Source: Stella humosa
GTDB lineage: Bacteria; Pseudomonadota; Alphaproteobacteria; ATCC43930; Allostellaceae
Reading direction: 5' to 3'
DNA: 64,000 bases
Assembly: GCF_006738645.1 (NCBI RefSeq)
Contig: NZ_AP019700.1
Coordinates: 2,244,001 to 2,308,000, forward strand
Shown here: one piece after another, positions 23,048 to 40,499 of the stretch
Position numbering within the stretch: the stretch's first letter is position 1
How the letters are laid out: every line of letters starts with the position of its first letter
Translations under genes and position numbers: made by a program
Notes under the pieces: model-generated
Database searches by the model: none
Seen by the model: the letters and a program-made list of their open reading frames with translations, nothing else
Told to the model about the DNA's origin: nothing

Positions 23048-23073
23048 ATTTTCCTAGCGATATCAAATACTTA

Positions 23074-23106
23074 GGGGCGCCTCGGCCAGCCGGCCGGGCG
23101 CCCCTT
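23074..23106 (+). terminator. hairpin after tRNA-Phe
   Basis: GGGGCGCC (23074-23081) pairs with GGCGCCCC (23097-23104), followed by TT. It sits 29 bp after the tRNA end, but on the element side of the att site, so it came with the element and now probably stops the tRNA transcript. Confidence 0.5.
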
Positions 23107-23110
23107 CGTG

Positions 23111-23196
23111 TTGCAACGTGTTACGACGCTTTTCTTAGGTTTTCCGGGCTTTCCCAACTGCTCCCGCTGACTCCGTGCAACATGGCTGCAACACGG
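23111..23196 (+). repeat. integrase arm-type repeats, left end of element A
   Basis: TGCAACATGG (23176) and TGCAACACGG (23187) are direct repeats spaced 11 bp apart, with a weaker TTGCAACGTG at 23111. The same pair with the same 11-bp period occurs at 40445 and 40456. Such helically phased pairs at both ends fit arm-site binding by the element's integrase. Confidence 0.5.
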
Positions 23197-23220
23197 TGTT
23201 CCGTCGATGTTCGCCGCGAA

Positions 23221-23751
23221 TCACCAGACCAAAACCATCGGCAACACCGTAGCCGGCCGCCCGCCAAGCCTCCCCAGACAGACCGCGCGGACCGCCCTGC
23301 GGTCATCCTCGAACCACGCACCAGCCGGCCAGCGCGCCGCGGGGTCGAAGCCGTAGTCGGCGGCGTTCGCCACCTCGCCGTCGCCGGCCCGCGCATTCGA
23401 GCCCAGCAGCTTTCGACGCCGTGCCCCGTAGGTGCGGGGATGCACGCCGAACAGCCCTGCGGCCCTGGCGTCGCTGATGCCCGCCAGTAGCAGCCGCTCG
23501 ATCGTCTCCCGGCTGGCCGGCCACGGCTGCGGTCCTGCGAGGCTGGTCGGGACCGGGGGCCGCCCCGGGCGGTCCGGCTTCCGGGTCCGCGGCGGCCGCC
23601 CCTCGGGCTGTAGCTCGACCCCGAGCGCGTGGGCCATGTTGAACACGGCGGTCTGCCCGCGGCCGTAGTGCCGGGCCAGCGAGCGCACCGACGCGCCGGC
23701 CTGGACGGCTGCCGCAATATCCCCGGCAGTGGGAGGCCAGGGCGCGGTCAT
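23221..23751 (-). CDS. phage-type protein with two helix-turn-helix segments
   Basis: 176 residues from the ATG that overlaps the previous stop (ATGA at 23748-23751). Two separate helix-turn-helix-like stretches are visible: SVRSLARHYGRGQTAVFNMA near residue 25 and SDARAAGLFGVHPRTYGARR near residue 90. An RPPRTRKPDRPGRP basic linker lies between them. This suggests a DNA-binding protein, perhaps a terminase-small-subunit-like or regulatory protein, but no family is certain. It is the last of three coupled genes at the left end of element A. Confidence 0.6.
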   Translation of the reverse strand: MTAPWPPTAGDIAAAVQAGASVRSLARHYGRGQTAVFNMAHALGVELQPEGRPPRTRKPDRPGRPPVPTSLAGPQPWPASRETIERLLLAGISDARAAGLFGVHPRTYGARRRKLLGSNARAGDGEVANAADYGFDPAARWPAGAWFEDDRRAVRAVCLGRLGGRPATVLPMVLVW

Positions 23752-24071
23752 GGCTGCGGCTCCGGCCGGCCGCCGCCGAACGCCTCTCGGCCCAGCAGCA
23801 GGTCCGGCCCCAGATAGCCGTTGTCGATGATCGCAGCGACCCGGCAGCAGTACGGCTCGCCCACCTCGACCACGCACTCAGCGAAGGCCATGGGGTAGTC
23901 AGAGAGCTTGATATAGCGGCCCGTGATGGTGGCCTCGGCCCGCAACCGATGGGACAAGACAGACCAGACGCGGCGCGGGGCCAGAACGGCCATGGCGCCG
24001 CGCTGGGCCGACCCGACGGTCGTCGAGACGGCGCGGCCCGTCCAGGGGAACGGCTTCTCGGTGGCGGTCAT
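23748..24071 (-). CDS. hypothetical protein, 107 residues
   Basis: Not recognised. The ATG at 24071 overlaps the preceding stop (ATGA) and the gene overlaps the next one the same way, so it belongs to a three-gene coupled set. The sequence has TITGRYIKLSDYPMAFAECVVEV and VAAIIDNGYLGPDLLLGR, suggesting a small beta-rich fold. No signal peptide, membrane segment or cysteine cluster. The ATGA coupling is the main reason to accept it as real. Confidence 0.55.
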   Translation of the reverse strand: MTATEKPFPWTGRAVSTTVGSAQRGAMAVLAPRRVWSVLSHRLRAEATITGRYIKLSDYPMAFAECVVEVGEPYCCRVAAIIDNGYLGPDLLLGREAFGGGRPEPQP

Positions 24072-24577
24072 CGGCCCGCCTCCCGGAGGATCCGGCCGAA
24101 GTCCGCTTCCACGGTATCCAGGAAGCCGATGACGTCGGACGCGTCGCCATAGAAGGTGCCGTCCAGGACCATCCGCTTCGCATGATGGATGCGCATGGCA
24201 CACTCGGCAGCCGACACGGCCGGCTCCGTCATCGCCCGGTTCTCAAAGTAGCTGTCGACGAAGTTGACGGCGACGTGCTGCGCGTCCTCGCCCTGTTCGC
24301 GCTCGAGGCCGATATGCCAGATGCCGCGGAAGAAGTGATGGTAGGCGAAATCCAGTTCGACGGACTGGTGCGGCATCACGCGATCCAACTCCGCGCCGAT
24401 GGCGGCGACGGCGGGATGGTTCGCCGTGATCTCGCCGGGTCGGATGCCGGGGCCGGTGATGTAGTCCCGCGCCAGCCGCTCGACAAGTGCCAGCAGGTCC
24501 GCGGGGGCAGCGACGTCGTAGGCGGGGGGCGGGGTCGGCAAGCCGGGGTCGGTTGGAGTAATCTTGCTCGTAGCCAT
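24068..24577 (-). CDS. hypothetical protein, 169 residues
   Basis: The start at the ATG at 24577 is chosen because AGGA lies just before it; the open frame continues upstream through the promoter region. The sequence is acidic, with a proline-rich head and a helical body (LLALVERLARDYITG, HHFFRGIWHIGLEREQGED, FLDTVEADFGRILREAG). I do not recognise a family. It is the first of three coupled minus-strand genes, divergent from the XRE regulator, and probably expressed early under its control. Confidence 0.55.
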   Translation of the reverse strand: MATSKITPTDPGLPTPPPAYDVAAPADLLALVERLARDYITGPGIRPGEITANHPAVAAIGAELDRVMPHQSVELDFAYHHFFRGIWHIGLEREQGEDAQHVAVNFVDSYFENRAMTEPAVSAAECAMRIHHAKRMVLDGTFYGDASDVIGFLDTVEADFGRILREAGR

Positions 24578-24610
24578 TTCCTGAACCCTCAACGTTCTGG
24601 TTGTGGTCAG

Positions 24611-24714
24611 GCCGGGCGGGGTGCTGGTAACACCTCGCCCGGCTGTCGGTTGTTCTGATTTCAGAACATGGTTACGATGCATCAGTATGCGGCAGCATGC
24701 AACAAGTTCGTAAC
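24611..24714. promoter_or_regulatory. divergent control region with palindromic operators
   Basis: Three structures lie between the divergent genes. GCCGGGCGGGGTG pairs with CACCTCGCCCGGC (24611-24643, one mismatch). GTTCTGATTTCAGAAC at 24652-24667 is an uninterrupted inverted repeat, and a GTTCTGA half-site recurs just before the XRE start. GTTACGA (24671) mirrors TCGTAAC (24708). The layout resembles a phage immunity switch bound by the adjacent regulator. Confidence 0.5.
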
Positions 24715-24723
24715 GGGGTTCTG

Positions 24724-24951
24724 ATGTTGGCTGTTCAGTGCAAGATGGCGCGTGCTGCGCTTGGGATGGGTGTCCGCGATCTCGCGGCGGCGGCGGCCGT
24801 GTCGCCCGATACAATCGCCCGTCTAGAACGAGGCGAGACGCTGTATCCCCGCACCATCGCCGCCATCCGCAACGCCCTCGAAGCCGCGGGCGTCGAGTTC
24901 ATCGCGGAGAACGGCGGCGGGGCAGGGGTGCGGTTGAGGAAGGGTAGGTAA
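24724..24951 (+). CDS. XRE-family helix-turn-helix regulator
   Basis: 75 residues if begun at the ATG at 24724; the frame also has an ATG nine codons earlier. Residues ~6-60 form a Cro/CI-type helix-turn-helix: KMARAALGMGVRDLAAAAAV, SPDTIARLERGE, then a helix and the closing VEFIAENGGGAGVRLR. That tail is common to a large group of short XRE regulators in proteobacterial phages and islands. It likely represses itself and the divergent leftward genes through the palindromes upstream. Confidence 0.85.
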   Translation: MLAVQCKMARAALGMGVRDLAAAAAVSPDTIARLERGETLYPRTIAAIRNALEAAGVEFIAENGGGAGVRLRKGR

Positions 24952-25097
24952 GTGCCGCCACGTCCAGGTGGGCATAGAACACGGAACGCGATCCATTCGA
25001 CGCGGGCGGAAATTGCGCGAAGAGGCGTTATTAGGCGTATATTGTTCTGCGCGAAGACCCATAGGATGTATTGTATGGCAGCCAGATGGAGACGGGC

Positions 25098-25331
25098 ATG
25101 CTCGCATGGATCACGGTTGCCGCCAGTGCCACAGCTGCTGCGCTATGGCTGGCGGCCTCACTAGTGCCGCTCCCGAAGGAGTTTAATGTTGGCTACGGAG
25201 GCGTCGGTGGTACTGCGGAAATCTTGCACCGACGATTGCGTCTCATGGGGAGGCTGAACGCTGTTGGCGCGGGTGCAGCTAGCGTTGCAGCAGCAGCGCA
25301 GGCCTGGGCGACCTGGAGTATTTCTCCATAG
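25098..25331 (+). CDS. small two-segment membrane protein
   Basis: 77 residues from the ATG at 25098 (GGAGACGGGC precedes it); an ATG at 25086 is an alternative. One hydrophobic segment is at the N-terminus (MLAWITVAASATAAALWLAA) and one at the C-terminus (AVGAGAASVAAAAQAWATW). The loop between them contains RRLRLMGRLN. Small proteins of this layout are common in phage and integrative elements; the function is unknown. It stands alone between the XRE gene and a ParB-like remnant. Confidence 0.45.
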   Translation: MLAWITVAASATAAALWLAASLVPLPKEFNVGYGGVGGTAEILHRRLRLMGRLNAVGAGAASVAAAAQAWATWSISP

Positions 25332-25334
25332 CGT

Positions 25335-25590: not shown

Positions 25591-25613
25591 GGCATGACGT
25601 CATACCGCGCAAG

Positions 25614-25640
25614 AAAAAGGCCGCCTCGGTGGGCGGCCTC
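25614..25640 (-). terminator. Rho-independent terminator of hicBA
   Basis: On the minus strand GGCCGCC pairs with GGCGGCC around a CACCGA loop, followed by TTTTT. It begins nine bases after the hicA stop. Stem and T-run make this the clearest terminator in element A. Confidence 0.85.
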
Positions 25641-25649
25641 AATCTCGGT

Positions 25650-25859
25650 TCAGCGGAACAGGGCCCGGTCGAGGGCAGATTGTCGGACAATCGCGGCCAA
25701 GGTGCCTGGCGCCGGCTCATCGTTGTCTGCGCATGAGAGGGTGACCAACCGCAGCGCCCCCTTGATCTCCGCCCTATACTGGCGGTGGCTACCTTTCTGG
25801 CGAACCAGCACGAAGCCGTGAGCAAGAAGCACCGCGACAATGTCGCGGCCCTTCTTCAA
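25650..25859 (-). CDS. HicA-type mRNA interferase toxin
   Basis: 69 residues. The family pattern is clear: an N-terminal helix (MKKGRDIVAVLLAHGFVLVR), the catalytic GSHRQY with its histidine, a beta strand (RLVTLSC), and GTLAAIVRQSAL at the end. HicA folds as a double-stranded-RNA-binding domain and cuts mRNA, stopping growth unless bound by HicB. Its ATG overlaps the stop of the antitoxin gene (ATGA). Here the antitoxin comes first, the reverse of the classical hicA-hicB order. A good terminator follows. Confidence 0.8.
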   Translation of the reverse strand: MKKGRDIVAVLLAHGFVLVRQKGSHRQYRAEIKGALRLVTLSCADNDEPAPGTLAAIVRQSALDRALFR

Positions 25860-26176
25860 GCGTGGCAGATCAGGTTATGGCTTGCTCCAAACCGATCGGT
25901 CGGCGGCGGCCGACGCGCCATCGAGGACCGCAGAACAGCCCACCAGTACGGCAGCCACGCCGACAGCGGAGATGGCCGATAAAGCAGGTGCCGTCGCTCT
26001 TCAGCCGGGAGATCGCGAACTGACTCAATGTGCAACTCGACCGCTTCTTGCAGAAGCGCAATCGTGTCTTCGAGCGACGGGCCGTCTACGGCGATATCGA
26101 GATCGAGGCACATTCCTGACCAGCGATCACCTTGGCCGTGAACGTAGCAGCGTAGGATGCGATCCATGTCCATCAC
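25856..26176 (-). CDS. HicB-like antitoxin
   Basis: 106 residues. ILRCYVHGQGDRWSGMCLDL, then the DLDIAVDGPSLEDTIALLQEAVELHIE block, is the HicB RNase-H-like partner fold, which lacks catalytic acids. The C-terminal ~40 residues are hydrophobic and basic (SAWLPYWWAVLRSS) rather than an obvious DNA-binding domain. It should neutralise HicA, encoded by the next gene. Several ATG codons cluster at the start. Direct repeats upstream at 26355-26382 may be the operator. Confidence 0.72.
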   Translation of the reverse strand: MMDMDRILRCYVHGQGDRWSGMCLDLDIAVDGPSLEDTIALLQEAVELHIESVRDLPAEERRHLLYRPSPLSAWLPYWWAVLRSSMARRPPPTDRFGASHNLICHA

Positions 26177-26354
26177 CGTTCCGACGTGAAAGCGCGCGCT
26201 AGCGCAGCATCTTTAGAACGTCGACACACCAGTGCTTGCTCCCACAGTATCGAAAAAGCCTATTTGCGGAGCGCTTGTTGTGAGGGCCGCGCTACGGGGC
26301 CTCTTAGAAACGCCTCTCGCGGACGCTACACCGGCAGCGTGTGCGTTGCACGCA

Positions 26355-26426: not shown

Positions 26427-26837
26427 CTACCGCGCGAGCAGTCGGCACGTCCCGCCCCACACAGTCATCAAGTCCACGAACAGGAAGGGCATAGCGGGCT
26501 CCCACACGCGAATTCGGAGCATGTCATCCGGCACGCTGATCATCGCGGGTGATGTCGTGCGGGCGACGACGTCGTTCACCGCCGACCCCTTCTGAATGAT
26601 GCGATACTGCGTCGTGGCGGCGGTCCCGCCGGGATAGACACGACGCAGAACGGCGGTCCGCTCGTCGAATATAAGGCGGAAGTTCGTCGCCCAAGCGCCG
26701 CCCGGCGCATCCCCGAAGCGACCGTCACTGCCGACGCTCCGAGCCTCGGCAATCGCGCACTCAAACAGCCGATCGGCCGCCTGGGCGGTGCCGGCAACCG
26801 CCAGGCAGAGCGCGAGGAGGATGGGGCGGAGGGTCAT
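26427..26837 (-). CDS. exported hypothetical protein, 136 residues
   Basis: The ATG at 26837 is preferred to a TTG four codons upstream, since GAGGG precedes it. A cleavable signal peptide is evident: MTLRPILLALCLAVAGTAQA, then ADRLFECAI. The mature part is about 115 residues with FDERTAVLRRVYPGG and VWEPAMPFLFVDLM, and two cysteines that could pair in the periplasm. No family recognised. It follows another exported protein gene by nine bases. The pair lies downstream of the tape-measure gene and looks like cargo rather than a virion part. Confidence 0.6.
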   Translation of the reverse strand: MTLRPILLALCLAVAGTAQAADRLFECAIAEARSVGSDGRFGDAPGGAWATNFRLIFDERTAVLRRVYPGGTAATTQYRIIQKGSAVNDVVARTTSPAMISVPDDMLRIRVWEPAMPFLFVDLMTVWGGTCRLLAR

Positions 26838-26845: not shown

Positions 26846-27475
26846 TCAAAGATCCCGGCGCCTCTTTGGCCTTCGTTCTTCCAGCAGGTCGCTGAGCGGA
26901 CGATGGGACATCAGCAAACGCCCGGCATCCACTTTCCCTGCGGCGCCCCTCTCGCCCATTGCGATAGATGACGTCTTCCTAACCCACACGTGACGCCGGT
27001 CACCAAACGTCGCACCCATACGATTCTGGATGGTGCGCCGCTCGGTGTGATCGGCCGGCCCGTACTTGCCGGCAATCTCTTCGGCAATCGTCCCGTAGTG
27101 TTCCGCCCGAAACGTGATCATGATCCGCACGAGCTTCTGATCTAGGAAGTAATAGACAGGCGTGGCGTCCACCCCGGCGATCGTCTCCCGCCGCCAGTCT
27201 TTCCGGAGGACGTCCTCCGGGCCATTCATCGTGCACGCAATTACGCCGACCTTCGGCTCCCACGCCTCGAGGGTGAACCATTCACTGAATCTGGGGTGGC
27301 GATCCGAACAGTACGGGCGCTCACCGCCTCTGAACGCATTCGCTCGGCGGAACTCCGCCAATGTCGTGGTGCCCACCACCGCGCCCTTGAAGCCGTAGTT
27401 GCCTTCGTCCGCCGCCGCTACGCCGACCATCGACAGCCACGCGATGACAAGTATTCTCAGCGGGCGCTGACGCAT
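26846..27475 (-). CDS. exported hypothetical protein, 209 residues
   Basis: The start is at the ATG at 27475 with a strong GGGGGAGG site. The signal peptide runs MRQRPLRILVIAWLSMVGVAAA, with cleavage before DEGNYG. The mature protein starts YGFKGAVVGTTTLAEFR, a pattern seen in small periplasmic proteins that bring a short beta-rich domain, and contains a pair of cysteines (PYCSD, VIACTM). The C-terminus is very basic (RRPKRRRD). The function is unknown. It forms a pair with the next exported protein. Confidence 0.6.
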   Translation of the reverse strand: MRQRPLRILVIAWLSMVGVAAADEGNYGFKGAVVGTTTLAEFRRANAFRGGERPYCSDRHPRFSEWFTLEAWEPKVGVIACTMNGPEDVLRKDWRRETIAGVDATPVYYFLDQKLVRIMITFRAEHYGTIAEEIAGKYGPADHTERRTIQNRMGATFGDRRHVWVRKTSSIAMGERGAAGKVDAGRLLMSHRPLSDLLEERRPKRRRDL

Positions 27476-27661: not shown

Positions 27662-27666
27662 AGTCG

Positions 27667-30600
27667 CTACACGGCCCGGCGCAGCGGCGGAGCCGACCCG
27701 ACCTTCGGCGCCCGCCCGGCTCGCGCCGCCTTGGCATCCGCATGCATCTCTTCGCGGGTCGCGTTGCCGGCCTTCGTGCCCTGGTCGATCTGGGCTAGGC
27801 GGGCCGCCACGATGCCGATGGCCGCATTCGCCTTCCGCAGCTCGTGCACCACTTCGCGATGCTCGGCCGCCGTCGGTCCGCTGCGCCCGGCGGCCAGGCC
27901 CTCAATGATGCGCGAGTGGGGCACCGAGAACACCCGCTCGCCCGGCATCAGCATGGCCGGCACGCTGTCCCGGCCAGCGACGCCGCCCGTCACCAGCCCG
28001 CCGAGCGCGTAGCCGGCGGGGGCGCCGGAGCCGGCGAAGAACCCCGGCGGCACGGTCGTGAACTGGCGCAGCTTGTCGATAAAGCCTTTCCAGCGCGTGC
28101 CGTCGGTCGAGGCGTTCAGCCAATTCAGATGGTCGGTTCCGCCGAAGTCCAGGTTCATGGGGAAGCCCGCTTGCCGCGCCGCGGCGAAGTATTCCAGGCG
28201 GTCCAGGCCAGCCAGCCCCGAAGGGTGCGCCTGGAGCATCCAGGCGTAGGCGGCTTCCTCGGTGGCGGCGCCCGTGTAGGACGCGAACCCCTTCATGAAC
28301 TCGACGACGGACTCGTTGGCGCCGCGGCCGAGCGACTGCATGCCGAACCTGATCTGCGTCAGCTTGCCGGCGCTGTCGAGGTAGTAGCCGGCGCCCGGAG
28401 TGGTCGGGGTCGACCCACCACCGCCGCCACCGCCACCGCCGGACGTGCCGCCACCGCTGCTGCTGCCCAGGGCGGACAGGTCGCCCCGCAGCCCTTCGAT
28501 CTGGCCATTGAGCCGCGCCAGTTCCGCATTGGCCGTGGCAGCCAGCGCCAACTGTTGGGTCTCGAAGGTTGCCGTCTTCTGCTCGGCCTGCGTGATCATG
28601 CCAATGGTGCGGTCGAACAGCGCGACGTACTGCGGCGACGAGCCAAACACTTGCTTGCCGAGCGACAGGACGGTGCTGCTCACTTGCTGTAGTTCGCGGG
28701 CCGCATCGGGCGCGTCCGCGCCGCCGGCCAGGACACGAGCCAGCGCCGCCGCCTGCTGCCGCTGGGCTTCGGCAAGCTGATCGCCAAGGGATGCCGGGTT
28801 GTTGCTCGGGTCGGTCAACAGCCCGAGGCGATACAGACGCAGGCTGTCGGCAGCACCCTTAAAGGCGTTGGCCATCCGCTCGGCCTCGCGGGCCGCATCG
28901 TTCTGGATGCGAGCCAGGTCCTGGAGGCTGTCGATCTGGTCTTGAATGGCTTGGCGCGCGCCATCGTTGCTGCTGCCGCCGCCGCTGCCGCCGCCGGAAC
29001 TGGTCGACGACCCGTTGTCGTTGGCCGGCAGGTAGCCGCCGGCCTGCGGGGCAACGGCCCGGGTGTAGCCGGCCTGCGCATACTGGCGGATGGCGTCCGC
29101 CTGCGCCTGCGTGATGTAGCCGGCCGTCGACGGGTTGTTGTCCGGGTCCAGGTTGTAGATCAGCCTGTTGCCCATCTCGCGCAGGGCCGCCTCGTCGCCG
29201 GTCGCGGCTGCCGAAACGAGCCCGAGCAGGCGGGCATACTGCGTAGTGTCGAGCCCCTGGCCGGCGAACAGGTCGCGGCTGCTCATTTGGAATGCGGGAT
29301 TGATCGTCTGTTCGATGCCGGTGCGGATGTCGATGGCCAGCGCCGTCATCTGGCGCGCGATTTCCTCGCGGGCGCGGATCGCGCCGCCCACCATGTCGTC
29401 CCAGATGCCTTGTTGGATCTGGCCGATTTCCTCGGTCTTGAAACCGACGTCCGTCAGGATCGGCAGCAGGTCGCGCATGAAGGCTTCATATTCGGCCGTG
29501 GCTGCGGTCACGGGGTCGAGCGTGGCGCCCAGGCCCAGCGTCGTCAGGACATAGCCGCGCGTGGCCGCGTCGGCCTTCGTGGTGCCGTCGGCCAGTTCCT
29601 CGGTGCCCAACTTCAAGTCCGCGATCTTCTCGCGGAAGTCGTCAACTCCGGTCTTGATGTCGGCCGCCATCTTTCGGCCGCTCTCGCCCACCGCGCGCAG
29701 CGCCAGGGCCACCGGGTCGAGCGCCGCGGTTCCAAGCTCGACCAGCGGATCAAACATGCGGCCGAACTCGACGTCGGCCAGGAAGCCCTCCAGGTCGGTC
29801 GCCGTGCTGTTCTGCACGGCGGTCGCGACGGTCTCGCCCAGGCCCGACCAGTCGGCCGACTTCAGCGCGGCCATGCTGAAGTCACTGAAGGCCTGCGCCA
29901 TCTGCTCCTTATCTTCGGGGTCGAACGTGAACACCTGCCAGTCGTCGACCGACTGCGCGTCGGGCGCGCCGTAGCTGATGCTGGCGCCTTCCTTCTTCCC
30001 ATACCGAGCGGAGACGGTGCCGCCGAACTCGACGCCGCTATAGCGGCGCGCCAGCTCGTCCAGCGTGCGCTGGCCGGCGTCGGCGATGTTGTCGACCAGC
30101 GTCAGCGACGACGCGTGCTTGTCGCCGCGGTAGAGGCGATCGAAGCTGAGGTCGCCGCCAGCGCCCGCCTGGTCGAAGGTGAACGACGACTCCGCGCCCA
30201 TGTTGCTGGGCTTCTTGCCGAACAGGCTGCCGACGAGATTGCCGATGAACCCGCCGATCGGGCCGCCGATGCCAGGCAGCAGGAAGTTGCCCAGGGCGAA
30301 TCCGCCCGCCCCCAGGCCGGCCTGGATGAAGTTGCCGGAAATGATGCCGGGAAGGGCGGAAGCCAGCGGGCCGATGATGTCCATGGGCGTGAAGCTGATA
30401 CCGCCCTGCATGCCCGAAGCGCCGCCGGCGCCGCCCGCGCCCCATGGCGTGGCAGACCCCGGCCCGAACGTAGCCTCGGCGCCGTAGTACGCGCTCCCGA
30501 CCGACTGCGACCCCCCGATGTTGGCGAACGGCGTGTTGGCCCAGCGGAAGGCGTCCCCCACAAGCCCGCCGACGTCCGCACCGCCGATGCTGAAGGATGG

Positions 30601-32955: not shown

Positions 32956-33229
32956 GTGGCGGCCTCCATCAGAGGGACGGAGCGTCGGGAGACGCCCCAT
33001 CCCGGCGCCTCGGGGCGCGGGGTATGGATATCTTGTGGCGCTCGGGATTCTGCCGCCGAGTGGCCGATCCCCCGGCCGGCTACGGATGCCGGCCGGGATG
33101 GTGGTCATCGCCGCGCCCGTCAAAAGCTACCGGGCCGCGATCTGTCGGGGTTGTCCGAGGCGGGGGCACTGGCCGACTGATCCCCCTCCGGCGGCCCTTG
33201 TTCGCCGGACTATGGCCCCTAGACACTGT

Positions 33230-33523
33230 TCACTCGCTGCCGCCTACCCAGATCCGGACACGGCCGGCGGTACGCCCCCCGAGGATGCCTTCGTGCGCGA
33301 TATCCACGTCGATGCCGACGCGCCGACCATGCGGCGCCGCTGCTGCGATGGTTTCCCGGATGGTCAGCGACAGATCGGCCGCGATCTGCTGCGCGACGTT
33401 GTAGGTGGTGGTGGGCGGCGCCGTCACAGGCTGCCGCGCGTCCTCTCGGACGCGACGCACGATCTCCCTGGCCGGCATCTCGCTGGCGGGGGCCGCCACT
33501 ACCCAATCTCGTGCGCTGCTCAT
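33230..33523 (-). CDS. small phage protein, 97 residues
   Basis: Starts at the ATG (33523) that overlaps the stop of the upstream coiled-coil gene. The sequence has REIVRRVREDARQPV, YNVAQQIAADLSLTIRETI and VGIDVDIAHEGILGGR. The closing RVRIWVGG suggests a short beta-strand end. I do not recognise a family. Its place just before the tape-measure gene is where tail-assembly or head-tail-connecting proteins are usually encoded. Confidence 0.55.
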   Translation of the reverse strand: MSSARDWVVAAPASEMPAREIVRRVREDARQPVTAPPTTTYNVAQQIAADLSLTIRETIAAAAPHGRRVGIDVDIAHEGILGGRTAGRVRIWVGGSE

Positions 33524-33858
33524 GATCTGGCTTCCCTCGCTGGGGCCGGCACCCGGACCCGTGGTTTCGTCTTCGCCGTCGTGTCCGCCTCGATGCCGGC
33601 ATCGTCGAGCCGGCGCTGCAACTCCCGGACGGTGACGGCCATGGCCTCGATCTCGGCCTCGCGGCGCTCGATGTCGACGCTCGCCTTGGCGCGCATCTCG
33701 GCGAACTCGGCGCGCATCTCGGCGATGGTCTGGCGGGCCTCGGCTTCGATGGCCTGCCGTTCGCGCCGCCAGGTCTGCCGCTCCTCGGCGATGACCTGGC
33801 CCAGCGCCGCGCGCAGCGCGTCGGGGGCCGGCTGTAGCCGCTTGCCGGGGTTCTCCAT
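33520..33858 (-). CDS. coiled-coil phage protein, 112 residues
   Basis: The ATG at 33858 overlaps the capsid-gene stop (ATGA). Residues ~20-85 form one long charged coiled coil (EERQTWRRERQAIEAEARQ, RAEFAEMRAKASVDIERRE) with strong heptad character. The tail is short and basic. No catalytic motifs. Coupling to the capsid gene suggests a scaffold, head-decoration or chaperone role, but this is inference. Its stop in turn overlaps the next gene. Confidence 0.6.
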   Translation of the reverse strand: MENPGKRLQPAPDALRAALGQVIAEERQTWRRERQAIEAEARQTIAEMRAEFAEMRAKASVDIERREAEIEAMAVTVRELQRRLDDAGIEADTTAKTKPRVRVPAPAREARS

Positions 33859-34934
33859 CACCACCACACCGCCCCGTCGATGTAGGCGACGGCTCCGCTG
33901 CGCTGCTTGGCGAAGGCCACATCCATCAAGAGCCGCAGCGCCAGCGTGTTCGTCTGGAACATGCTGCGGACCGGGTCGGCGACCGTGGGGCCGGTCGCGC
34001 TCACGATCTCAAGCGGGGTGTCGCTCATGTGGATGACTGCCTCTTCGGCCGCCGCGATCTCGACGTCGCGGCCGATGCCGTGGACCAGCGCCTGGGGGTC
34101 GACCGCGATCAGGCGTCCGGCCGGGATCGCGAGCGATGCCAGGACGGGCACCGTCAGGTCGGGCCGGCGGACCCGCATCACCGCGGCCAGGGCGGGGGAG
34201 GCGACGAAGGCGACATCACCGCTGCCGGAGGCGCCGACGGCGGCAGCCAGGTCCGCCAAGTCGTCGTCCAAGTAGCCGGTTGCCGGGGTCGGGGTAACGC
34301 CGTAGAGCATTCCGGCATGTGCAGCCGCGCTGCCGGCGGTCGTTGCGAAGTAGGCGGAGTCCAGACTGATCGCGGCCTCGCGCCGCAACATCGTCTCGAA
34401 CACGGCGTAGGCCGCCGACCGCTTCGCCAGTTCCGTGCTGAAGGGCAGGATGCAGCCCATCTTCTTGGGGCCGATGACGACGAGCGAGAAAGCACCGGCC
34501 GAGACGGGGATCGCGGATGCTTCGCCAACCCATCCGATCCTCGTCGGCGCCGCGTTGCGGGTCGGCAGGCGAATGTCCTTCCATTCGTCGAGCGGAATCA
34601 CGATGCCGCTGGGGGCGAGGGCCGCCGCGGCGCTGCCCGGCGCCATCCACTCCAGGAAGCCGCCCATGAGTGCAGGCGCCACTTCCTCAGCCCAGCCCGG
34701 AACCGACGTCGTCGCGGGGTCGATCGCGGCCCGCTCGATCGCGGCGATTGCCGCACGGTCGCCCGGCCAGCTCTCGCGGATGATGTTGGCGGCCCTCTTC
34801 TCCGGGTCATGATCGCGGACGGCGTGCGCGCGCATAAGCGCGAAGGCCGCGCGGACCAGCGACGTGTCCCGTGCCGGCGAAGTGGCCGGCCTGACGGGAA
34901 TCGGGAGCGGGCCCCCGCTGGAAAGACTCTTCAT
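33858..34934 (-). CDS. phage major capsid protein (HK97-like)
   Basis: 358 residues. The pattern of an HK97-fold capsid is visible in the C-terminal half: a substrate-like strand and long loop (IPVSAGAFSLVVIGPKKMG), LRREAAISLDSAYFA, VAFVASPALAAVMR, and the final TNTLALRLLMDVAFAKQRSGAVAYIDGA, which is the usual C-terminal P-domain strand. No separate maturation protease or scaffold is fused. It is the main evidence that element A descends from a tailed phage. The assignment is by pattern; an encapsulin-like relative cannot be excluded without a structure comparison. Confidence 0.72.
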   Translation of the reverse strand: MKSLSSGGPLPIPVRPATSPARDTSLVRAAFALMRAHAVRDHDPEKRAANIIRESWPGDRAAIAAIERAAIDPATTSVPGWAEEVAPALMGGFLEWMAPGSAAAALAPSGIVIPLDEWKDIRLPTRNAAPTRIGWVGEASAIPVSAGAFSLVVIGPKKMGCILPFSTELAKRSAAYAVFETMLRREAAISLDSAYFATTAGSAAAHAGMLYGVTPTPATGYLDDDLADLAAAVGASGSGDVAFVASPALAAVMRVRRPDLTVPVLASLAIPAGRLIAVDPQALVHGIGRDVEIAAAEEAVIHMSDTPLEIVSATGPTVADPVRSMFQTNTLALRLLMDVAFAKQRSGAVAYIDGAVWW

Positions 34935-34955: not shown

Positions 34956-34978
34956 ACGCGTCTATGTTGTAGACGCGT
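34956..34978. promoter_or_regulatory. perfect palindrome before the capsid gene
   Basis: ACGCGTCTA and TAGACGCGT are separated by five bases. The 9-bp arms are identical and end at the stop codon of the upstream gene, 22 bases before the capsid ATG. It could be an operator or a hairpin that sets capsid mRNA start or stability. Confidence 0.5.
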
Positions 34979-35223
34979 CACACTTTGTTGCGCTGGGATG
35001 CCGCCAATTCTTCCAGCATACGCGCCACCGCGTCGCCGATCTCGCTGCGGTCTTCGGACTTTTGCTCCGGTAGCCACCGCAGATCCATCAGGATCTCGAC
35101 GACGTGAACCGACACGGGCACTGGCACGACGACGAGGCCGAGGCGCTGGCGCTCGCGCAGGCGGCGCTGGCGGGCGGTTGCTGGGCGGGCCGCACCCCTG
35201 GTCCGGCCATAGTCAACGCTCAT
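34978..35223 (-). CDS. hypothetical phage protein, 81 residues
   Basis: RQRRLRERQRLGLVVVPVPVSVHVVEIL and LRWLPEQKSEDRSEIGDAVARMLEEL are seen in small conserved phage proteins of proteobacteria, where a basic head precedes a helical tail. No named function. A GGGGG-type ribosome site lies before the ATG. Upstream, AAGGGGG and CCCCCTT can form a hairpin at about 35236-35257. The stop abuts the palindrome before the capsid gene. Confidence 0.6.
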   Translation of the reverse strand: MSVDYGRTRGAARPATARQRRLRERQRLGLVVVPVPVSVHVVEILMDLRWLPEQKSEDRSEIGDAVARMLEELAASQRNKV

Positions 35224-35478: not shown

Positions 35479-35772
35479 TCACGGGCGTCCCGGGAGGCGA
35501 CGGCGGGGCGGCCGCTGCTGGCCCTCCGGCGCGGGCTGGGCCTCCACGGCGGCGAGGCGGGTGGTGACGCCCAGCACCACGTCGGCCGCTTGGCTGGAGA
35601 CATCCGCCAGGCCGACGATATTGGCTTCGGCCGTGTCGAGCCGACCAGCGACAGCGTGAATGGCCTTGGCCAGATCTTCCACCATCTGCGCGAAGGCGAT
35701 GCCGCCGGACTGGAGCACGGCGACCTGGGCCTCAAGGTCAGCGACACGCGCGGCGAGGGCATCCTGGTCCAT
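35479..35772 (-). CDS. coiled-coil protein, 97 residues
   Basis: The ATG at 35772 is chosen since GGAGG lies eight bases before it; it starts two bases beyond the end of the previous gene. MDQDALAARVADLEAQVAVLQ shows heptads, and the second half (VEDLAKAIHAVAGRLDTAEANI, VLGVTTRLAAVEAQ) is helical. The tail is proline- and arginine-rich. It has the features of a small tail or capsid accessory protein, but no family is recognised. The 255 bp after its stop show no convincing gene. Confidence 0.55.
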   Translation of the reverse strand: MDQDALAARVADLEAQVAVLQSGGIAFAQMVEDLAKAIHAVAGRLDTAEANIVGLADVSSQAADVVLGVTTRLAAVEAQPAPEGQQRPPRRRLPGRP

Positions 35773-35773: not shown

Positions 35774-36190
35774 TCAGTGGCCTCCATCGGCTTGGCCCGC
35801 GGACGGCTCGGGCAGGTCGGGCAACGGCCGGCCGCCATTCATCAGCGCACCGATAAACTCGACGAGCGGCCCGATCAGGTCGGCATTGAAGCCGCTGCGG
35901 TAGATCGCGCTTTCCATGCCGCGCAACCGGCCCTCGGCGGGCGTCGCCATGCCGACTAGGATCACCGTCTCGATGGCATCGAGGTCGAACCGCAGGATGG
36001 CTTCCCGCGCGGCGACCAGCCCGCCGAACGCCCGACTGATCGCCAGGGCCGCGGTGAGGCTGGGGTGCAGGACATGCTGGGCGCCATCGAGCGTGACCAC
36101 GATAGCGTCGGTGCCGGCGGTCGGTGCGCGCTTCGGCTCGCCGATCACCCGATCGGCTTCGGCGGCGGCGATAGGGTCAGGGTCGGTCAT
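35774..36190 (-). CDS. tail assembly chaperone-like phage protein
   Basis: 138 residues. An acidic head is followed by AIVVTLDGAQHVLHPSLTAALAISRAFGGLVAAREAI, a pattern like the gene-transfer-agent and phage tail-tube assembly chaperones: a short beta hairpin with an LxPS/T motif and then a helix. The remainder (ETVILVGMATPAEGRLRG) is helical. A chaperone or tail-terminator role would suit its place upstream of the capsid and tape-measure genes. The identification is tentative. Confidence 0.45.
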   Translation of the reverse strand: MTDPDPIAAAEADRVIGEPKRAPTAGTDAIVVTLDGAQHVLHPSLTAALAISRAFGGLVAAREAILRFDLDAIETVILVGMATPAEGRLRGMESAIYRSGFNADLIGPLVEFIGALMNGGRPLPDLPEPSAGQADGGH

Positions 36191-36505: not shown

Positions 36506-36593
36506 TTCAGAGGCTCCGAACGCGGGTGCCGGGCACCCCAAGTGCCCGCGCCCCCGCGTTTCGGGGCAGGGGGGTATGGGGGGTGAGAACACA

Positions 36594-36700
36594 GGGTGTG
36601 GGCAGGTGTGGGCAGGGTGTGGGCACCCATGTGCGCAGGGTGTCCGCAGGGTGTGCGCACCCCGGTTTTGGCATGTGCGCAGGGTGTGGGCATGTCATGC
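36594..36700. repeat. imperfect tandem repeats, iteron-like
   Basis: About six copies of an 11-14 bp unit resembling GCAGGGTGTGGGCA follow each other, some changed to GTGTCCGCA or GTGTGCGCA. The tract begins just past the 3' end of the helicase gene. Tandem repeats next to a replication gene recall plasmid/phage iterons, but the period is irregular. No DnaA box or AT-rich unwinding region was seen beside it. Confidence 0.45.
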
Positions 36701-38215
36701 GGGCCGGAGCCTGGCGCCATCTTTGCTCGGCGGCCCATAGCGCTCCGAGACGATGGCGCCGCGCTGTTGGAGGCGATGCAAGGCGCTCTCAAATGCCGGC
36801 TTGCCCACGCCTTCGCGGCCGGAGTGTCGGGCGAAGATGGTCGGGGCGTAGTTCCGCGCCTGCATTCGCGGGCTTACCCACTCGCCCGCCGTGTAGGTCG
36901 ACTGCAACAGCGCCAGGAACACGCGGTCAGCCTTGCTGGCCATGGCGGTGCGATCGAGCGACCCCGGCTCGTCCAGGGCGTGGAAGACGCCATCCCGCCA
37001 CTGGACGCGGAAGCTGTCGCCCTTGCGCGCGTAGTTGCTCTTTACGCGGGTGATGATGCGGGTGTCGGGGTCGGCATCGGGATCGGGGTCCTGCTCCATG
37101 TAGAGCATGGACCTGACGCCGTTCGGCCAGTGCGTGCTGCCGCTGTTGCCGGTCCGGGCCGCGGTACCGGCGGCGCTGGGGTGCGACAACAACAGCACGG
37201 CACCGTCGATCTCGATGGCCAGCCGATTAAGGGTGGTCAAGAACGCTCGAACCTGTCGGCGCTTGATCTCGTCGCCCCCGAAGAGGTTGGCACTGCTGTC
37301 AAGGATCAGCAGCTGCGCCTTGAATGCCTTGGCTGCGGCGACAACCTGGCCGTAGTAGGGCGTCACCTTGACCCCACCGCGTCCGTCCTCTTCCACCATC
37401 TCGTGCGCATCGACGATGGCACTGCGCCATGCCATGTCGCCGAAGTCCGACAGATCGGCGCCCATGGAGGCGGCCACCGAGGCCATGCGTCGGTGCAGTT
37501 CGCTTTCGTCGTCCTCGCAGTAGATGCCCAGCGACCGCACCCGCTCCACGGCCCAGCCGAGCCATGATGCGCCAACAGCGGTGGAAGCCTGCAACTGGAT
37601 GCCGCCGACCTGGGATTTGCCCACGCCGCCCGACCCCGAGAACAATGTGCACTGGTGCAGCGGCAGCCAGCCCGGCACCAGCCACGCCCGATCGGGGATC
37701 GGCCTCCCAGCCAGGTCCGCTGCGACCGTGATGTCGAACGACGGCCGGTCGGCGCCGCTGGCATTCAGCGCGGCCTGCTCTCGCAAGAGCGCCGAGCGGG
37801 CCGCGGGGTCGCGCTCGGTGACCATGGTGTGAGCGATTTCCAGGCCGCGCCGATCGACCCAGCAACGGATGATGTCCTCGACCCATCGCTCGGTCGATCC
37901 GGCCGACCAGAGGCCGATGCCGGCGCTGTAGACGCGGAGAACGTAGTCGTAGCCGCCGCCCAGCTCGTAGAGGGGATCCTGCCGGGCCGCCGTGTGGACC
38001 GTCACCGGATCGGCGGTCGCACCGCGGGAGATGATGTCCTTCGCCTTCTCGAACAGTATCCCGTTGATCGCGTCCGCGAACATGTGTCCGGCCAGGCCCG
38101 GGTCCACACGGCTGAGCGCCGTCGGGCCGTTCTGCATCAGGGCGGAGACGAGCGCCTGCTCGGCCTCGACGTTGGCCGGCTGCGCCCGTTGGCCGAAGGC
38201 GCCGCCGTCATCCAT
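36695..38215 (-). CDS. replicative helicase: DnaB N-terminal domain fused to RepA-like ATPase
   Basis: 506 residues. The first ~120 residues resemble the DnaB N-terminal domain (VEAEQALVSALMQNG, GHMFADAINGILFEKAKDI, DPVTVHTAARQD). The rest is a RecA-fold ATPase of the RepA/AAA_25 kind: Walker A FSGSGGVGKSQVG near residue 210, CEDDESELHRRM, QLLILDSSANLFGGDE (Walker B region) and a serine-histidine LLLSHPS motif. It likely unwinds DNA at the element's origin or loads a replisome. The start at 38215 lies inside the end of the preceding small gene. The fusion lets element A initiate its own replication. Confidence 0.8.
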   Translation of the reverse strand: MDDGGAFGQRAQPANVEAEQALVSALMQNGPTALSRVDPGLAGHMFADAINGILFEKAKDIISRGATADPVTVHTAARQDPLYELGGGYDYVLRVYSAGIGLWSAGSTERWVEDIIRCWVDRRGLEIAHTMVTERDPAARSALLREQAALNASGADRPSFDITVAADLAGRPIPDRAWLVPGWLPLHQCTLFSGSGGVGKSQVGGIQLQASTAVGASWLGWAVERVRSLGIYCEDDESELHRRMASVAASMGADLSDFGDMAWRSAIVDAHEMVEEDGRGGVKVTPYYGQVVAAAKAFKAQLLILDSSANLFGGDEIKRRQVRAFLTTLNRLAIEIDGAVLLLSHPSAAGTAARTGNSGSTHWPNGVRSMLYMEQDPDPDADPDTRIITRVKSNYARKGDSFRVQWRDGVFHALDEPGSLDRTAMASKADRVFLALLQSTYTAGEWVSPRMQARNYAPTIFARHSGREGVGKPAFESALHRLQQRGAIVSERYGPPSKDGARLRPA

Positions 38216-38396
38216 GGGCGCCACCCAAGGCGAGGCCGGCGACCAGCGCGGCGACCGGCATCGGCAGGGCGAACCTGCGGGCCAGCACGGTTGCCCGGCG
38301 ACGGTCGAGGGTGCTATCGTCGAACTCGTCGCGGCTGCCCAGCTCGACGGTTTCCAGAAGCCCACCGCGCCCCGCCAGGCTGGTGGGCTTCTCCAT
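38208..38396 (-). CDS. small hypothetical protein, 62 residues
   Basis: Starts at the ATG at 38396 and overlaps the helicase start by eight bases. Charged head (GRGGLLETVELGSRDEFDDS), then RRRATVLARRFALPMPVAALVAGLALGG, a basic helix followed by a hydrophobic stretch. This ending is common in small phage proteins encoded before replication genes. No function known. The overlap suggests translational coupling to the helicase. Confidence 0.55.
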   Translation of the reverse strand: MEKPTSLAGRGGLLETVELGSRDEFDDSTLDRRRATVLARRFALPMPVAALVAGLALGGAHG

Positions 38397-38409
38397 GTCC
38401 GGGGCCACT

Positions 38410-38637
38410 CTATGCGGCCTCGGCGGCGGCACGCTCCAGCCGCTCAATGGCGGCACGCTCCAACCGCTCGACATGCGCCCGAAGCGTGCTTTTCCGGGCG
38501 CACCAGACGCCCCCCAACTTAAAGGCGGGCAGCAGCCCCCGCTCTAGCAAGTGATAGGTGCGGCGCTCGTCGCCGCCGATCTCGCCAGTGATGCCTCGTG
38601 CGCCCACGAGCAGGTCATCCGCGATCCGATCAGTCAT
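38410..38637 (-). CDS. excisionase-like DNA-binding protein
   Basis: 75 residues from the ATG at 38637 (a GTG two codons upstream is also possible). LVGARGITGEIGGDERRTYHLLERGLLPAFKLGG is a winged helix-turn-helix of the excisionase/MerR type, followed by WCARKSTLRAHVERL. Such proteins direct excision of integrated elements or regulate early genes. It is divergent from the Arc-like gene and integrase and shares with them the region holding two palindromes. Confidence 0.7.
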   Translation of the reverse strand: MTDRIADDLLVGARGITGEIGGDERRTYHLLERGLLPAFKLGGVWCARKSTLRAHVERLERAAIERLERAAAEAA

Positions 38638-38675
38638 GCCCACACTCCAATCGCTGGCGACGGTTATGCGTCACG

Positions 38676-38743
38676 TTCCGATATATGTGGGAAGCTATCG
38701 TTGGTCGGCTTGCAATTCAAGCCACTTCCGATAAATATCGGAA
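38676..38743. promoter_or_regulatory. two related palindromes in the integrase control region
   Basis: TTCCGATAAATATCGGAA at 38726-38743 is a perfect 18-bp inverted repeat. TTCCGATATATGTGGGAA at 38676-38693 is a degenerate version exactly 50 bp upstream. They lie between divergent excisionase-like and Arc-like genes, which suggests cooperative binding by one of those regulators. Confidence 0.6.
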
Positions 38744-38771
38744 CGCTGGGAAGATCGCGGAGGATATGGAA

Positions 38772-39296
38772 ATGACGGGGCCGACAAAGCGCGCAGGCGC
38801 GCCGCCTACCTCGGAGCCTAGGCCGGGTCAGAAAACGACCCTGAGCGTGCGCGCAAGCCCGCAGCTCAAGGCGAAGATCCTTGATGCGATGAAGATGTCG
38901 GGGCGAAGCCTGAGCGAGGAGGCCGAGCTTCGGCTAGACTGGAGCTTTGCGGCCGAGGAGGAATGGGGATCGGCCGAGATTCGGCGGATGGCGTTCATCC
39001 TGGCGGGCGCGTTCGATCAATGGGGCCGCGCCGCCGCGATCATGAACGGACACCCCGATTGGACTCCGGCCCAATGGGTTGCAGATCCCGATTGCTACGG
39101 TGCGGCCTCCAGGGCCGTGGTCGAAACGCTCTACAGTAACTTGCCGACCAACGATCCAGATTTGCGCCGCCAGTTCCTCGCCAACCTCATCGTGAGGATT
39201 GAGAGCATCCGGCAGAACGAGGATGGTGCACGCCACGGCACTGCCGGATTCATTGAGCGCATAGAGCCGGCCAAGGCGCCCAAGGTGGAACGCTGA
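38772..39296 (+). CDS. Arc-like ribbon-helix-helix regulator
   Basis: 174 residues from the ATG at 38772 (GGAGG eight bases before; an earlier ATG at 38766 is too close to the site). The core QKTTLSVRASPQLKAKILDAM followed by KMSGRSLSEEAELRLD is an Arc/MetJ-like ribbon-helix-helix. The C-terminal ~110 residues are an extra domain without a known name (RMAFILAGAFDQWGRAAAIM). It overlaps the integrase start by one base (TGATG) and so is produced with it. It probably represses int and the divergent genes through the upstream palindromes. Confidence 0.75.
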   Translation: MTGPTKRAGAPPTSEPRPGQKTTLSVRASPQLKAKILDAMKMSGRSLSEEAELRLDWSFAAEEEWGSAEIRRMAFILAGAFDQWGRAAAIMNGHPDWTPAQWVADPDCYGAASRAVVETLYSNLPTNDPDLRRQFLANLIVRIESIRQNEDGARHGTAGFIERIEPAKAPKVER

Positions 39297-40444
39297 TGGC
39301 CGCTATCCGCAAGCGCATCCTGCCGAGCGGGGAAACCCGCTGGCTGGTCGACTACAAGGACGGCGCGGGGCAGCGGCGGGCCAAGATGTTCCCGACGAAG
39401 CGCGACGCCACGGGATGGTTGGATCGGGCCAAGGGCGAACTGCTGGCCGGAACCCACGTCGCGGACTCCGCGAGCATCACGGTTTCTGAAGCCGCGGAAA
39501 TGTGGCTCAAGCGGGCTGAAACCCACGGTCTGGAGTCCAGCACCATCCGGCAGTACCGCCAGCATGCCGAGCTCCATATCAAGCCGCGCGTCGGCGGGAC
39601 TAAGCTTACGATGCTGACAGCGCCCGCGGTCCAGCAGTTCGCAGATGAGCTGATGGCGGCCGGCTCGCGGGCGATGGCGGGCAAGGTGCTAACAAGCCTG
39701 TCCGGCATTCTGGCCGAGGCGCAGTCGCGCGGGCTGGTCGGGCGCAATGTCGCGAAGGATGTCCGTGTCCGACTTCCGAAGCGGCACAAGGCGCGGCCCG
39801 AGATGCCGACGTCCGAAGAACTGAAGGCGATCGTCACGAACGCGGCCGGCCGCTGGCGCCCCCTGATCCTGACCGCGGTATTCACCGGCCTGCGCTCTTC
39901 CGAGCTCCGCGGCCTGCGCTGGGAGCATGTCGACCTGAAAGCCGGGGTGCTGACTGTCGCCGGCCGCGTCGACCAGTGGGGCGCCTACGGCTCGCCGAAG
40001 TCGGATGCCGGACGCCGCGATGTTCCGCTGGCGCCGATCGTCACGAACACGCTGCGGGAATGGCGTCTGACCTGTCCGAAGAACGGGGCCGGGGAACTGG
40101 AGTGGGTATTCCCGAACGGGGCCGGCAACCCCGAGAGTCACGCCAACATCGTCAACCGGGGCTTCGACCCTCTCCAGGTCGCGGCTGGCGTCACGGTGCC
40201 GGGCAAGGTGCGGAACGAGAAGGGCGATCTCGTCGACGGTGCCGTGGCGAAGCACAATTTCCACGCCCTGCGCCATGCCGCGGCCGCGCTATGGATTCAA
40301 CAGGGGATCGGGGCGAAGAAGCTGCAAACGCTCATGGGCCATTCCAGCATCCAGATGACTTACGACGTGTATGGCTACCTGCTCGATCGGACCGAAGACG
40401 ATGTCGCGGTCATGGCGCAGGTCCAGGCGCGCTTGCTAGGCTGA
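39296..40444 (+). CDS. tyrosine integrase of element A
   Basis: 382 residues. An arm-binding N-terminal part (RKRILPSGETRWLVDYKD) is followed by a SAM-like core-binding domain (VSEAAEMWLKRAETHGLESSTIRQYRQHA). The catalytic domain has the Arg in FTGLRSSELRGL, HALRHAAAALW with the His-x-x-Arg pair, GHSSIQMTYDVYGYL with the second His and the Tyr nucleophile. All catalytic residues are present, so it should be active. Its C-terminus faces the att site 55 bp downstream. Two arm-type repeats follow the stop directly. Confidence 0.95.
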   Translation: MAAIRKRILPSGETRWLVDYKDGAGQRRAKMFPTKRDATGWLDRAKGELLAGTHVADSASITVSEAAEMWLKRAETHGLESSTIRQYRQHAELHIKPRVGGTKLTMLTAPAVQQFADELMAAGSRAMAGKVLTSLSGILAEAQSRGLVGRNVAKDVRVRLPKRHKARPEMPTSEELKAIVTNAAGRWRPLILTAVFTGLRSSELRGLRWEHVDLKAGVLTVAGRVDQWGAYGSPKSDAGRRDVPLAPIVTNTLREWRLTCPKNGAGELEWVFPNGAGNPESHANIVNRGFDPLQVAAGVTVPGKVRNEKGDLVDGAVAKHNFHALRHAAAALWIQQGIGAKKLQTLMGHSSIQMTYDVYGYLLDRTEDDVAVMAQVQARLLG

Positions 40445-40465
40445 TGCAACACGGATGCAACACGG
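40445..40465 (+). repeat. integrase arm-type repeats, right end of element A
   Basis: Two identical TGCAACACGG copies at 40445-40454 and 40456-40465, period 11 bp, one base after the integrase stop. The same period and sequence occur near the left end (23176 and 23187). Confidence 0.5.
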
Positions 40466-40499
40466 CGGCCCGGAAGCCGCAGAAACCCTAGGGTTGCCT

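Follow-up and report, generated by a model that had tools for sequence, protein, structure and literature searches.

A probable phage satellite with its own capsid, tape measure and tail assembly chaperone genes in Stella humosa

The window analysed here comprises 64,000 nucleotides of Stella humosa DNA (assembly GCF_006738645.1, contig NZ_AP019700.1, positions 2,244,001 to 2,308,000 of the forward strand). Within it lies element A, an island bounded by att sites at a tRNA-Phe gene, which carries a capsid gene, two putative tail genes, a replication helicase and an integrase, and which probably represents an integrated phage satellite.

Gene content of element A

The features on which this reading depends are as follows (positions within the window).

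22970..23045, + strand: tRNA-Phe, the integration site (ARAGORN, Rfam)
22997..23047, + strand: attL core, 51 nt, an exact repeat equal to the 3' part of tRNA-Phe
23048-40550: element A, ~17.5 kb, att-bounded island at tRNA-Phe
27667..32955, - strand: tape measure protein (TMP), 1762 aa (TMP_3 E 1e-53; 44-47% to the TMP of prophage P1)
33140..33215, - strand: Proteo-phage-1 RNA (RF03044; 43.1 bits, cut-off 42)
33520..33867, - strand: coiled-coil-like protein, 115 aa, overlapping the capsid stop (weak matches and by eye)
33858..34934, - strand: major capsid protein of the HK97 type, 358 aa, without a fused protease (PHROG, NCBIfam, profile, tree)
35479..35772, - strand: coiled-coil-like protein, 97 aa, or 119 aa from an upstream start (weak coiled-coil matches)
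35774..36190, - strand: putative tail assembly chaperone (TAC), 138 aa (phrog_6454; phage homologues occupy the TAC position; 35% identity with the G001 prophage TAC)
36592..36659, no strand: putative origin, an iteron-like array with 6.2 copies of an 11-nt unit (repeat search)
36695..38215, - strand: replication helicase, DnaB-N and AAA_25, 506 aa (AAA_25 E 3.6e-28, DnaB E 7.6e-12)
39296..40444, + strand: tyrosine integrase, 382 aa (Phage_integrase E 1.6e-19)
40500..40550, + strand: attR core, 51 nt, exact repeat

Genes were taken from a list of open reading frames (ORFs) and then re-called with a custom codon-usage caller; 19 of the 20 listed were scanned against Pfam and PHROGs, and the twentieth, a 66-aa ORF, against NCBIfam and Pfam only. 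The direct repeat at the two ends of element A is identical over 51 nt, and an extended version reaches 61 nt at 93% identity. Read from the right end, the order is integrase, Arc/TraY-like regulator, helix-turn-helix (HTH) gene, helicase, the iteron-like array that adjoins it, TAC-like gene, coiled-coil-like gene, 81-aa ORF and capsid, continuing leftward with the second coiled-coil-like gene, a 97-aa ORF, the Proteo-phage-1 RNA, the TMP and a group of cargo genes (HicA, XRE regulator and a protein with HTH matches). The sequence-only reading of this DNA had already named the capsid, a putative tail chaperone, two coiled-coil proteins, the 1762-aa TMP, the helicase and the integrase, all of which accord with the family matches listed; the Proteo-phage-1 RNA, the iteron-like array and a third att copy (see below) are additions to it.

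The capsid protein matches the PHROG major head protein at E 1e-15 and just misses the NCBIfam cut-off for HK97 capsids (E 1.9e-6, 27.2 bits against 27.5), and there is no Pfam match. A profile of five sequences, the capsid of A and those of four other islands, matches a solved major capsid protein at E 2.6e-19. A structure prediction from the single sequence reached a pLDDT of 35 and was not used. The small genes on either side were called coiled-coil-like from weak matches and by eye rather than with a coiled-coil predictor, and the 115-aa protein is a possible scaffold.

Genes for the rest of a virion were sought by tblastn of A with 30 query proteins (terminase, portal, protease, capsid, connector, tube, tip and lysin) taken from prophages P1 and P2 of the same genome, the G001 prophage of the same genus, elements resembling the capsid-forming satellites known as cfPICIs, phages and the islands described below. 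Nothing was matched up to E 0.01 except by one lysin query, at E 0.002 over a repeat region and with low-complexity masking off, while the positive controls were recovered (TMP at E 0, TAC at 4e-18). Profiles of TerS, TerL and portal proteins, run against all 240 frames of at least 40 aa in the element, gave a best value of E 0.13. The breadth of the queries varied: protease was covered by two, connector by one, and lysis by one lysin query and the family scans. The labels of the main queries were checked by Pfam, in which the protein taken from G001 as a tail tube query did not match any tube family. Among the 19 scanned genes there is also no Pfam or PHROG match to an HNH gene, to RepA_N or to a baseplate hub. 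The earlier statement that terminase, portal, protease and lysin genes are missing from A thus agrees with these searches, which found no convincing match for any of them.

Relatives of the structural genes, and other features

The capsid of A is rare. As a single query it matches three of 385 genomes in a sample of the class, A's own included (five candidates scored per genome), and the five-sequence profile matches ten of the 385 at E 1e-6 with the same number of candidates; two of these ten, besides A, belong to the profile itself, and six other class matches (frames of 434-634 aa) were used in trees only. Four plasmid records match, three from Sinorhizobium and one a broken copy from Bradyrhizobium. 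Two of the three Sinorhizobium records hold the capsid gene in two pieces; in strain M103 (L006 19692-20868), which has the same island as strain K101, the frame is split by a one-base length difference. In two further orders 2 of 17 and 1 of 18 genomes match (centres included), the sole addition being a short capsid in genome G427 (256-316 aa), which was treated as a fragment. No match was found among 50,697 phage records at E 1e-5, nor by peptide-pattern scans of genome and viral contigs. The same type of scan of the viral contigs found no match to the helicase or the TAC of A.

Gene neighbourhoods were read for four of these islands, one in Sinorhizobium (L004) and the others in genomes G303, G243 and G333. 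Each lies at a tRNA gene with a direct repeat (49, 50, 15 and 15 nt, in that order), and their sizes are 10.8, 11.1, 10.7 and 9.3 kb. All four encode an integrase (Pfam) and small regulator-like genes, some of them recognised by eye only. Replication genes are present in three (L004, G243 and G333) and were not identified in G303. A small coiled-coil-like gene, called by eye, adjoins the capsid gene in all five islands, A included. Queries for TerL, and profiles for TerL and portal, gave no convincing match in any of the four, while controls matched. One portal query did align with a 130-aa protein of the G243 island (E 3e-4), over its last 45 residues only. This protein was not counted as a portal, because its match to the portal models (E 1e-17) is confined to their final 80-odd positions, a part that fibre models match too. 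A TerS-like gene occurs in G333 (phrog_83, E 3e-7) and, weakly, in G243 (0.008), with no Pfam match for either. From these islands with a capsid alone it seems that the genes for portal and TerL may be dropped by a satellite that retains its capsid gene, and they make the matching of capsid and portal between parasite and helper open to experiment.

Two of the islands hold further genes of interest. At the end of the G243 island (L030 7901-9673, equal to G243:C1:3709900-3711672) is a gene for a 590-aa protein with no convincing family match, which from its composition and place may be a tail fibre. In the G303 island (L028 8668-11202), ShosTA-like defence genes and a SIR2-like gene adjoin tRNA-Pro.

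In capsid trees A groups with the Sinorhizobium island capsid and the Bradyrhizobium plasmid capsid (support 100/98-99); the latter copy, in L005, is broken, and one frame of it was used. The first tree had 21 rows and an unresolved base; the second, made without two long rows (GX_L025 and ISLfrag_G427), joins five island capsids in one group at 81/79, which is not firm. The G243 capsid is placed with those of RHph_X2_26, a B. elkanii plasmid and PAJU2, the last being annotated as protease-fused, and a single clade that includes G243 is rejected at a p-AU of 0.003, in a test chosen after the first tree had been viewed. Since the G243 capsid falls outside the island clade, capsids would, under the tree model, have entered such islands at least twice.

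The tail genes have relatives closer to home. Prophage P1, at about C1:967-1006 kb on the same chromosome, has a GpA terminase, a lambda-type portal, a gpE capsid and an S78-like protease that just misses the cut-off (E 0.0012). Its TMP is 44-47% identical to that of A over ~1,600 residues; the two are of equal length, and that of A has the TMP_3 domain and conserved end motifs. Nothing in P1 corresponds to the first ~100 residues in A, the final ~60 are similar, by eye, to the TMP of prophage P2, and the open frame reaches 1818 aa. With E 1e-80 as the threshold, none of the other 384 genomes sampled from the class gave a TMP match (two candidates scored each), and partial matches within the genus are seen in G003 (38%) and G002 (37%). 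Identity to P1 at the three codon positions is 59, 64 and 51%, where chance would give 42% at the third, a pattern that shows constraint over the whole history since the two diverged rather than within A alone.

The TAC-like protein matches phrog_6454, a family of unknown function, at E 7e-15 and Pfam TAC_11 only at E 0.059, with nothing in NCBIfam; its assignment comes mainly from the position of its homologues. These occur in 11 phage records, and genome context was viewed in two: in a Rhizobium phage the homologue lies between the annotated tail tube and tape measure genes, and in a Synechococcus phage it is flanked by a tail tube gene and by a long hypothetical gene that occupies the position of a tape measure. 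In the G001 prophage the homologue (35% identity, E 9e-19) precedes the TMP gene, with one 54-aa ORF between. In a sequence search with phmmer, neither the TAC of PLE1 (5IR0) nor that of HK97 (2OB9) was among the three PDB matches obtained up to E 10. As the TMP resembles that of P1, and the TAC that of the G001 prophage, both tail genes of A are related to genes found in phages of this genus.

The prophages themselves show some features of note. P1 contains two stretches without coherent phage genes, possibly inserted cargo, one beside the portal gene (G000:C1:978161-979545) and one before the tail tube gene (988011-988931), the second holding a 306-aa frame on the opposite strand. The G001 prophage has HK97-type portal, protease, capsid and terminase genes, and five of its proteins from the tip and fibre region are 48-62% identical to those of P1. 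Its portal protein (755 aa; L048 5623-7890) carries an anti-CBASS Acb1 domain behind the portal domain (Pfam E 6e-39) and is, as judged from these domains, a counter-defence enzyme fused to a structural protein.

Proteo-phage-1 RNA was found in 6 of the 385 genomes, in four of them over the cut-off, and a literature search on its name returned no paper. Two of the other occurrences are within the head and packaging operon of cfPICI-like elements whose portal and TerL genes are confirmed by Pfam: in G210 (L064/L068, G210:C32:81400-96000) it lies two bases after TerL, and in G136 (L065/L067, G136:C2:625000-633500), below the cut-off, before TerS-TerL. It was not found up to E 0.1 in the stretches with the TMPs of P1 and P2 (L012 and L015). 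The RNA may mark satellites, or may be a packaging or regulatory site. The XRE regulator of A and that of the cfPICI-like element in G210 share 59% identity across 61 residues. In an alignment of five of the RNA sequences, bases that are unpaired in the Rfam structure (GTCGG/CCGAC or GACGG/CCGTC, ~30 nt apart) look complementary, with compensating changes that are partial in G210 (by eye, not counted); they may represent a missing helix or the dyad of a cut site.

The remaining genes of A are small, and many have no family.

38772..39296, + strand: small regulator resembling Arc/TraY, 174 aa, weak (Arc-like repressor E 0.019; TraY E 0.053, under the cut-off)
38410..38643, - strand: HTH_17-like excisionase or AlpA-type regulator, 77 aa, weak (phrog_18541, of unknown function, E 5e-13; HTH_17 E 0.012, under the cut-off; putative role from position)
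38208..38408, - strand: 66-aa ORF, no family (NCBIfam and Pfam scans)
34978..35223, - strand: 81-aa ORF, no family (family scans)
33230..33523, - strand: 97-aa ORF, no convincing family (family scans)
26846..27475, - strand: 209-aa ORF, no family (family scans)
26427..26837, - strand: 136-aa ORF, no family (family scans)
25856..26176, - strand: 106-aa HicA partner, HicB from position only (phrog_12841, function unknown, E 2e-11; no Pfam match)
25650..25859, - strand: HicA toxin, 69 aa (HicA_toxin E 1.2e-13)
24697..24951, + strand: XRE regulator (HTH_31 E 3.7e-7)
24068..24577, - strand: 169-aa ORF, no family (family scans)
23748..24071, - strand: 107-aa ORF, no family (family scans)
23221..23751, - strand: protein of 176 aa matching HTH families (43% to a prophage P2 gene; HTH_38 E 5e-5, under the cut-off)

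The last of these was considered as a small terminase and rejected in favour of a regulator, because its P2 homologue sits three genes before TerL, the matches are to HTH families, and the sole hint of a terminase, for the P2 homologue, is at E 0.14.

Directly behind A is a second island (40551-59083), bounded by a third att copy with the tRNA-Phe core (59030-59083). It contains a large PAS sensor kinase gene, a pilus cluster (Flp/Tad-like, by eye) and a LysR-like gene, and a 54-aa piece near its start (40643-40807) resembles the end of an integrase. The integrase of A might excise A alone or A together with this second island.

What element A is likely to be

As an integrated, att-bounded element with an integrase and its own replication genes that is without part of the virion genes, A has the make-up of a phage satellite. 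We put the probability at roughly two in three that it is one which, judging by its gene content, makes a capsid of its own and equips the tails of a helper with its own TMP and TAC. Growth of a helper phage in the cell would be followed by excision and replication of A; a shell would be built from the capsid protein of A, perhaps on the coiled-coil-like protein as scaffold, and filled by the portal and terminase of the helper. The TMP of A, guided by its TAC, would then enter tails made otherwise of the tube and tip proteins of the helper, giving a chimeric tail. As donor of the tail the best candidate is P1, the lambda-type prophage on the same chromosome. The XRE regulator and the Proteo-phage-1 RNA that A has in common with the G210 cfPICI-like element were counted in favour of the satellite reading. 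The chances are about even for the wider proposal that A belongs to an unnamed satellite line in bacteria distant from those of the known cases, which captured capsid genes at least twice (in the line of A, and separately in G243) and carries a capsid and a small coiled-coil-like gene without TerL or portal, and that A assembles hybrid virions, in which its own shell sits on a chimeric tail whose TMP and TAC come from different phages of its genus.

Several observations tell against the satellite reading. A capsid has to be compatible with the portal through which it is filled, and no head matching that of A was found in P1 or P2, the portals and terminases elsewhere in the chromosome not having been scanned for. 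With heads of other types in P1 (lambda-type portal, gpE capsid) and P2 (Mu-type portal, gpE capsid), the proposed cycle needs an outside helper, a helper elsewhere in the chromosome or some other mechanism. A review of 2024 describes, in its available text, a strain with 17 prophages of which none detectably mobilised the resident satellite (PMC11389934). A helper prophage had been suggested as something to look for in this genome: P1 qualifies as a candidate donor of tails, and neither P1 nor P2 supplies a matching head. Nor was packaging-site DNA shared by A and these prophages found: blastn with words of 7 found nothing beyond the TMP and one regulator, the best leftovers scoring 40 bits, as did the control (the remaining 44 kb of the window, second island included). 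The capsid query matched only A in its own genome, without a second capsid of this type, and none in 98 other related genomes (at most 20 candidates scored per genome). The closest relatives of the TAC and TMP sit in different prophages, and the TMP of the G001 prophage is of another Pfam type, TMP_2. Among the islands, the borders of G243 and G333 are less sure, because their repeats are only 15 nt long and a second 15-nt tRNA match occurs inside the G243 island.

The sequence-only reading had left the choice between a deleted prophage and a satellite, and here the second alternative is preferred. A is not a complete prophage, since terminase, portal, tail and lysis modules were not found as such. 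It could be a decaying one, a complete siphophage that has lost its terminase, portal, protease, tube, tip and lysis genes; this would account for the true phage structural genes, for the likeness of the TMP to that of the complete-looking P1 and for the ORFs without families that fill much of the left third of A. We regard such decay as unlikely, because capsids that stand alone, partly of one lineage with that of A, are found again in four islands next to tRNA genes, where TerL and portal gave no convincing match, and because in the order helicase-TAC-coil-capsid-coil-TMP the capsid separates TAC from TMP, which differs from the phages viewed and is not what deletions from their order would leave. 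Inactivating mutations in the remaining genes had been named as a sign of decay to look for; the TMP and TAC align to their relatives over nearly their whole length with frames unbroken, the frame of the integrase and both att sites are intact, and the replication parts are in place.

Two other explanations accept an island of some kind and deny the tail genes a part in its virions. The TAC and TMP could be weapons, decoys that spoil the tail assembly of incoming phages with P1-type tails, the capsid serving a satellite or the same purpose. Tail assembly is indeed described as a target of defence in satellites and prophages, by Tai (PMC11364771) and by Tab, which targets the TMP (PMC10884400). 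A full-length TMP with its TMP_3 domain and end motifs would nevertheless exceed the needs of a decoy, and in the PLE satellites discussed below the TMP is reported to sit in virions (PLE11) and to be needed for efficient transduction; the decoy explanation is slightly less probable than decay. The least probable is that the capsid works as proposed while the TMP and TAC are recent passengers, acquired by recombination with prophages and without a role in spread. In keeping with this, the TMP query has no match in any of the four other islands, so that TMP and TAC are peculiar to A among the five, which is also a point against the satellite reading as a whole; the TMP looks mosaic, with a core like P1 and an end like P2; and the TAC and TMP genes stand apart, separated by the capsid gene and four small ones. 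Against it, the TAC and TMP are both present and open over 138 and 1762 codons, and the codon-position identity to P1 indicates constraint, though over the whole history since divergence. If the satellite reading is true, a distant element with TMP and TAC, on one chromosome with a complete-looking siphophage, P1, that has a related TMP, would suggest the swapping of tape measures to be a general tactic of satellites, and A and P1 form a pair in which it can be tested.

Comparison with known satellites

The sequence-only reading had compared A to capsid-forming satellites, a likeness that holds only loosely. Like A, cfPICIs have their own capsid, integrase, regulator and replication gene. They are described as carrying a whole head and packaging set (PMC10690885), of which protease, portal, connector, TerS, TerL and HNH genes were not found in A, which has TMP and TAC genes instead. 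A was therefore not classed as a cfPICI: it has the capsid of its own, and lacks recognisable protease, portal, connector and terminase genes. MiniFlayer, a Streptomyces satellite treated in the same paper, is described as combining, like A, its own capsid with a tail part of its own; according to that account it has genes for terminase and portal, and the tail part is a fibre. The G243 island, with a capsid and a long gene for a possible fibre, is nearer to MiniFlayer than A is.

Nearer to A are two gammaproteobacterial systems. The PLE satellites of Vibrio cholerae phage ICP1 were presented in 2026 as the first satellites known to build chimeric tails (PMC12987554). In the available part of that report, PLE11 and others encode TMP and TAC, as A does, and most other tail parts come from the helper; PLE11 virions contain the TMP and hub of the satellite in otherwise largely helper-made tails, and deletion of tmp cuts transduction by ~99.9% in PLE11, 96% in PLE1 and 99% in PLE4. 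The differences are that PLE11 virions contain the capsid proteins of ICP1, which in PLEs are remodelled by a protein of the satellite, whereas A has its own capsid gene; that PLE11 encodes a baseplate hub, a gene that was not seen in A; and that PLE virions have contractile tails, whereas the TMP relative of A is in P1, a prophage with a lambda-type head. The second system is a set of putative E. coli satellites (224 elements), described as having a major capsid protein, decoration protein, TMP and baseplate hub, without terminase, protease and head-tail adapters (PMC10448857). Like A they combine their own capsid and TMP, have no terminase, protease or adapter genes and are mostly found beside tRNA genes. 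They differ, compared by description only, in having RepA_N replication, a hub and a decoration gene where A has a DnaB/AAA protein and a TAC.

In the available text of the literature searched, no satellite of this kind is described outside Gammaproteobacteria, though the legend of Extended Data Fig. 10 in PMC12987554 states that sampled cf-PICIs and diverse putative satellites carry putative tmp genes. Both a capsid with a TMP in the absence of terminase (in putative satellites) and the chimeric tail are thus already known; from its predicted genes, A differs from the E. coli elements in having a DnaB/AAA protein and a TAC, and from PLE11 in having its own capsid.

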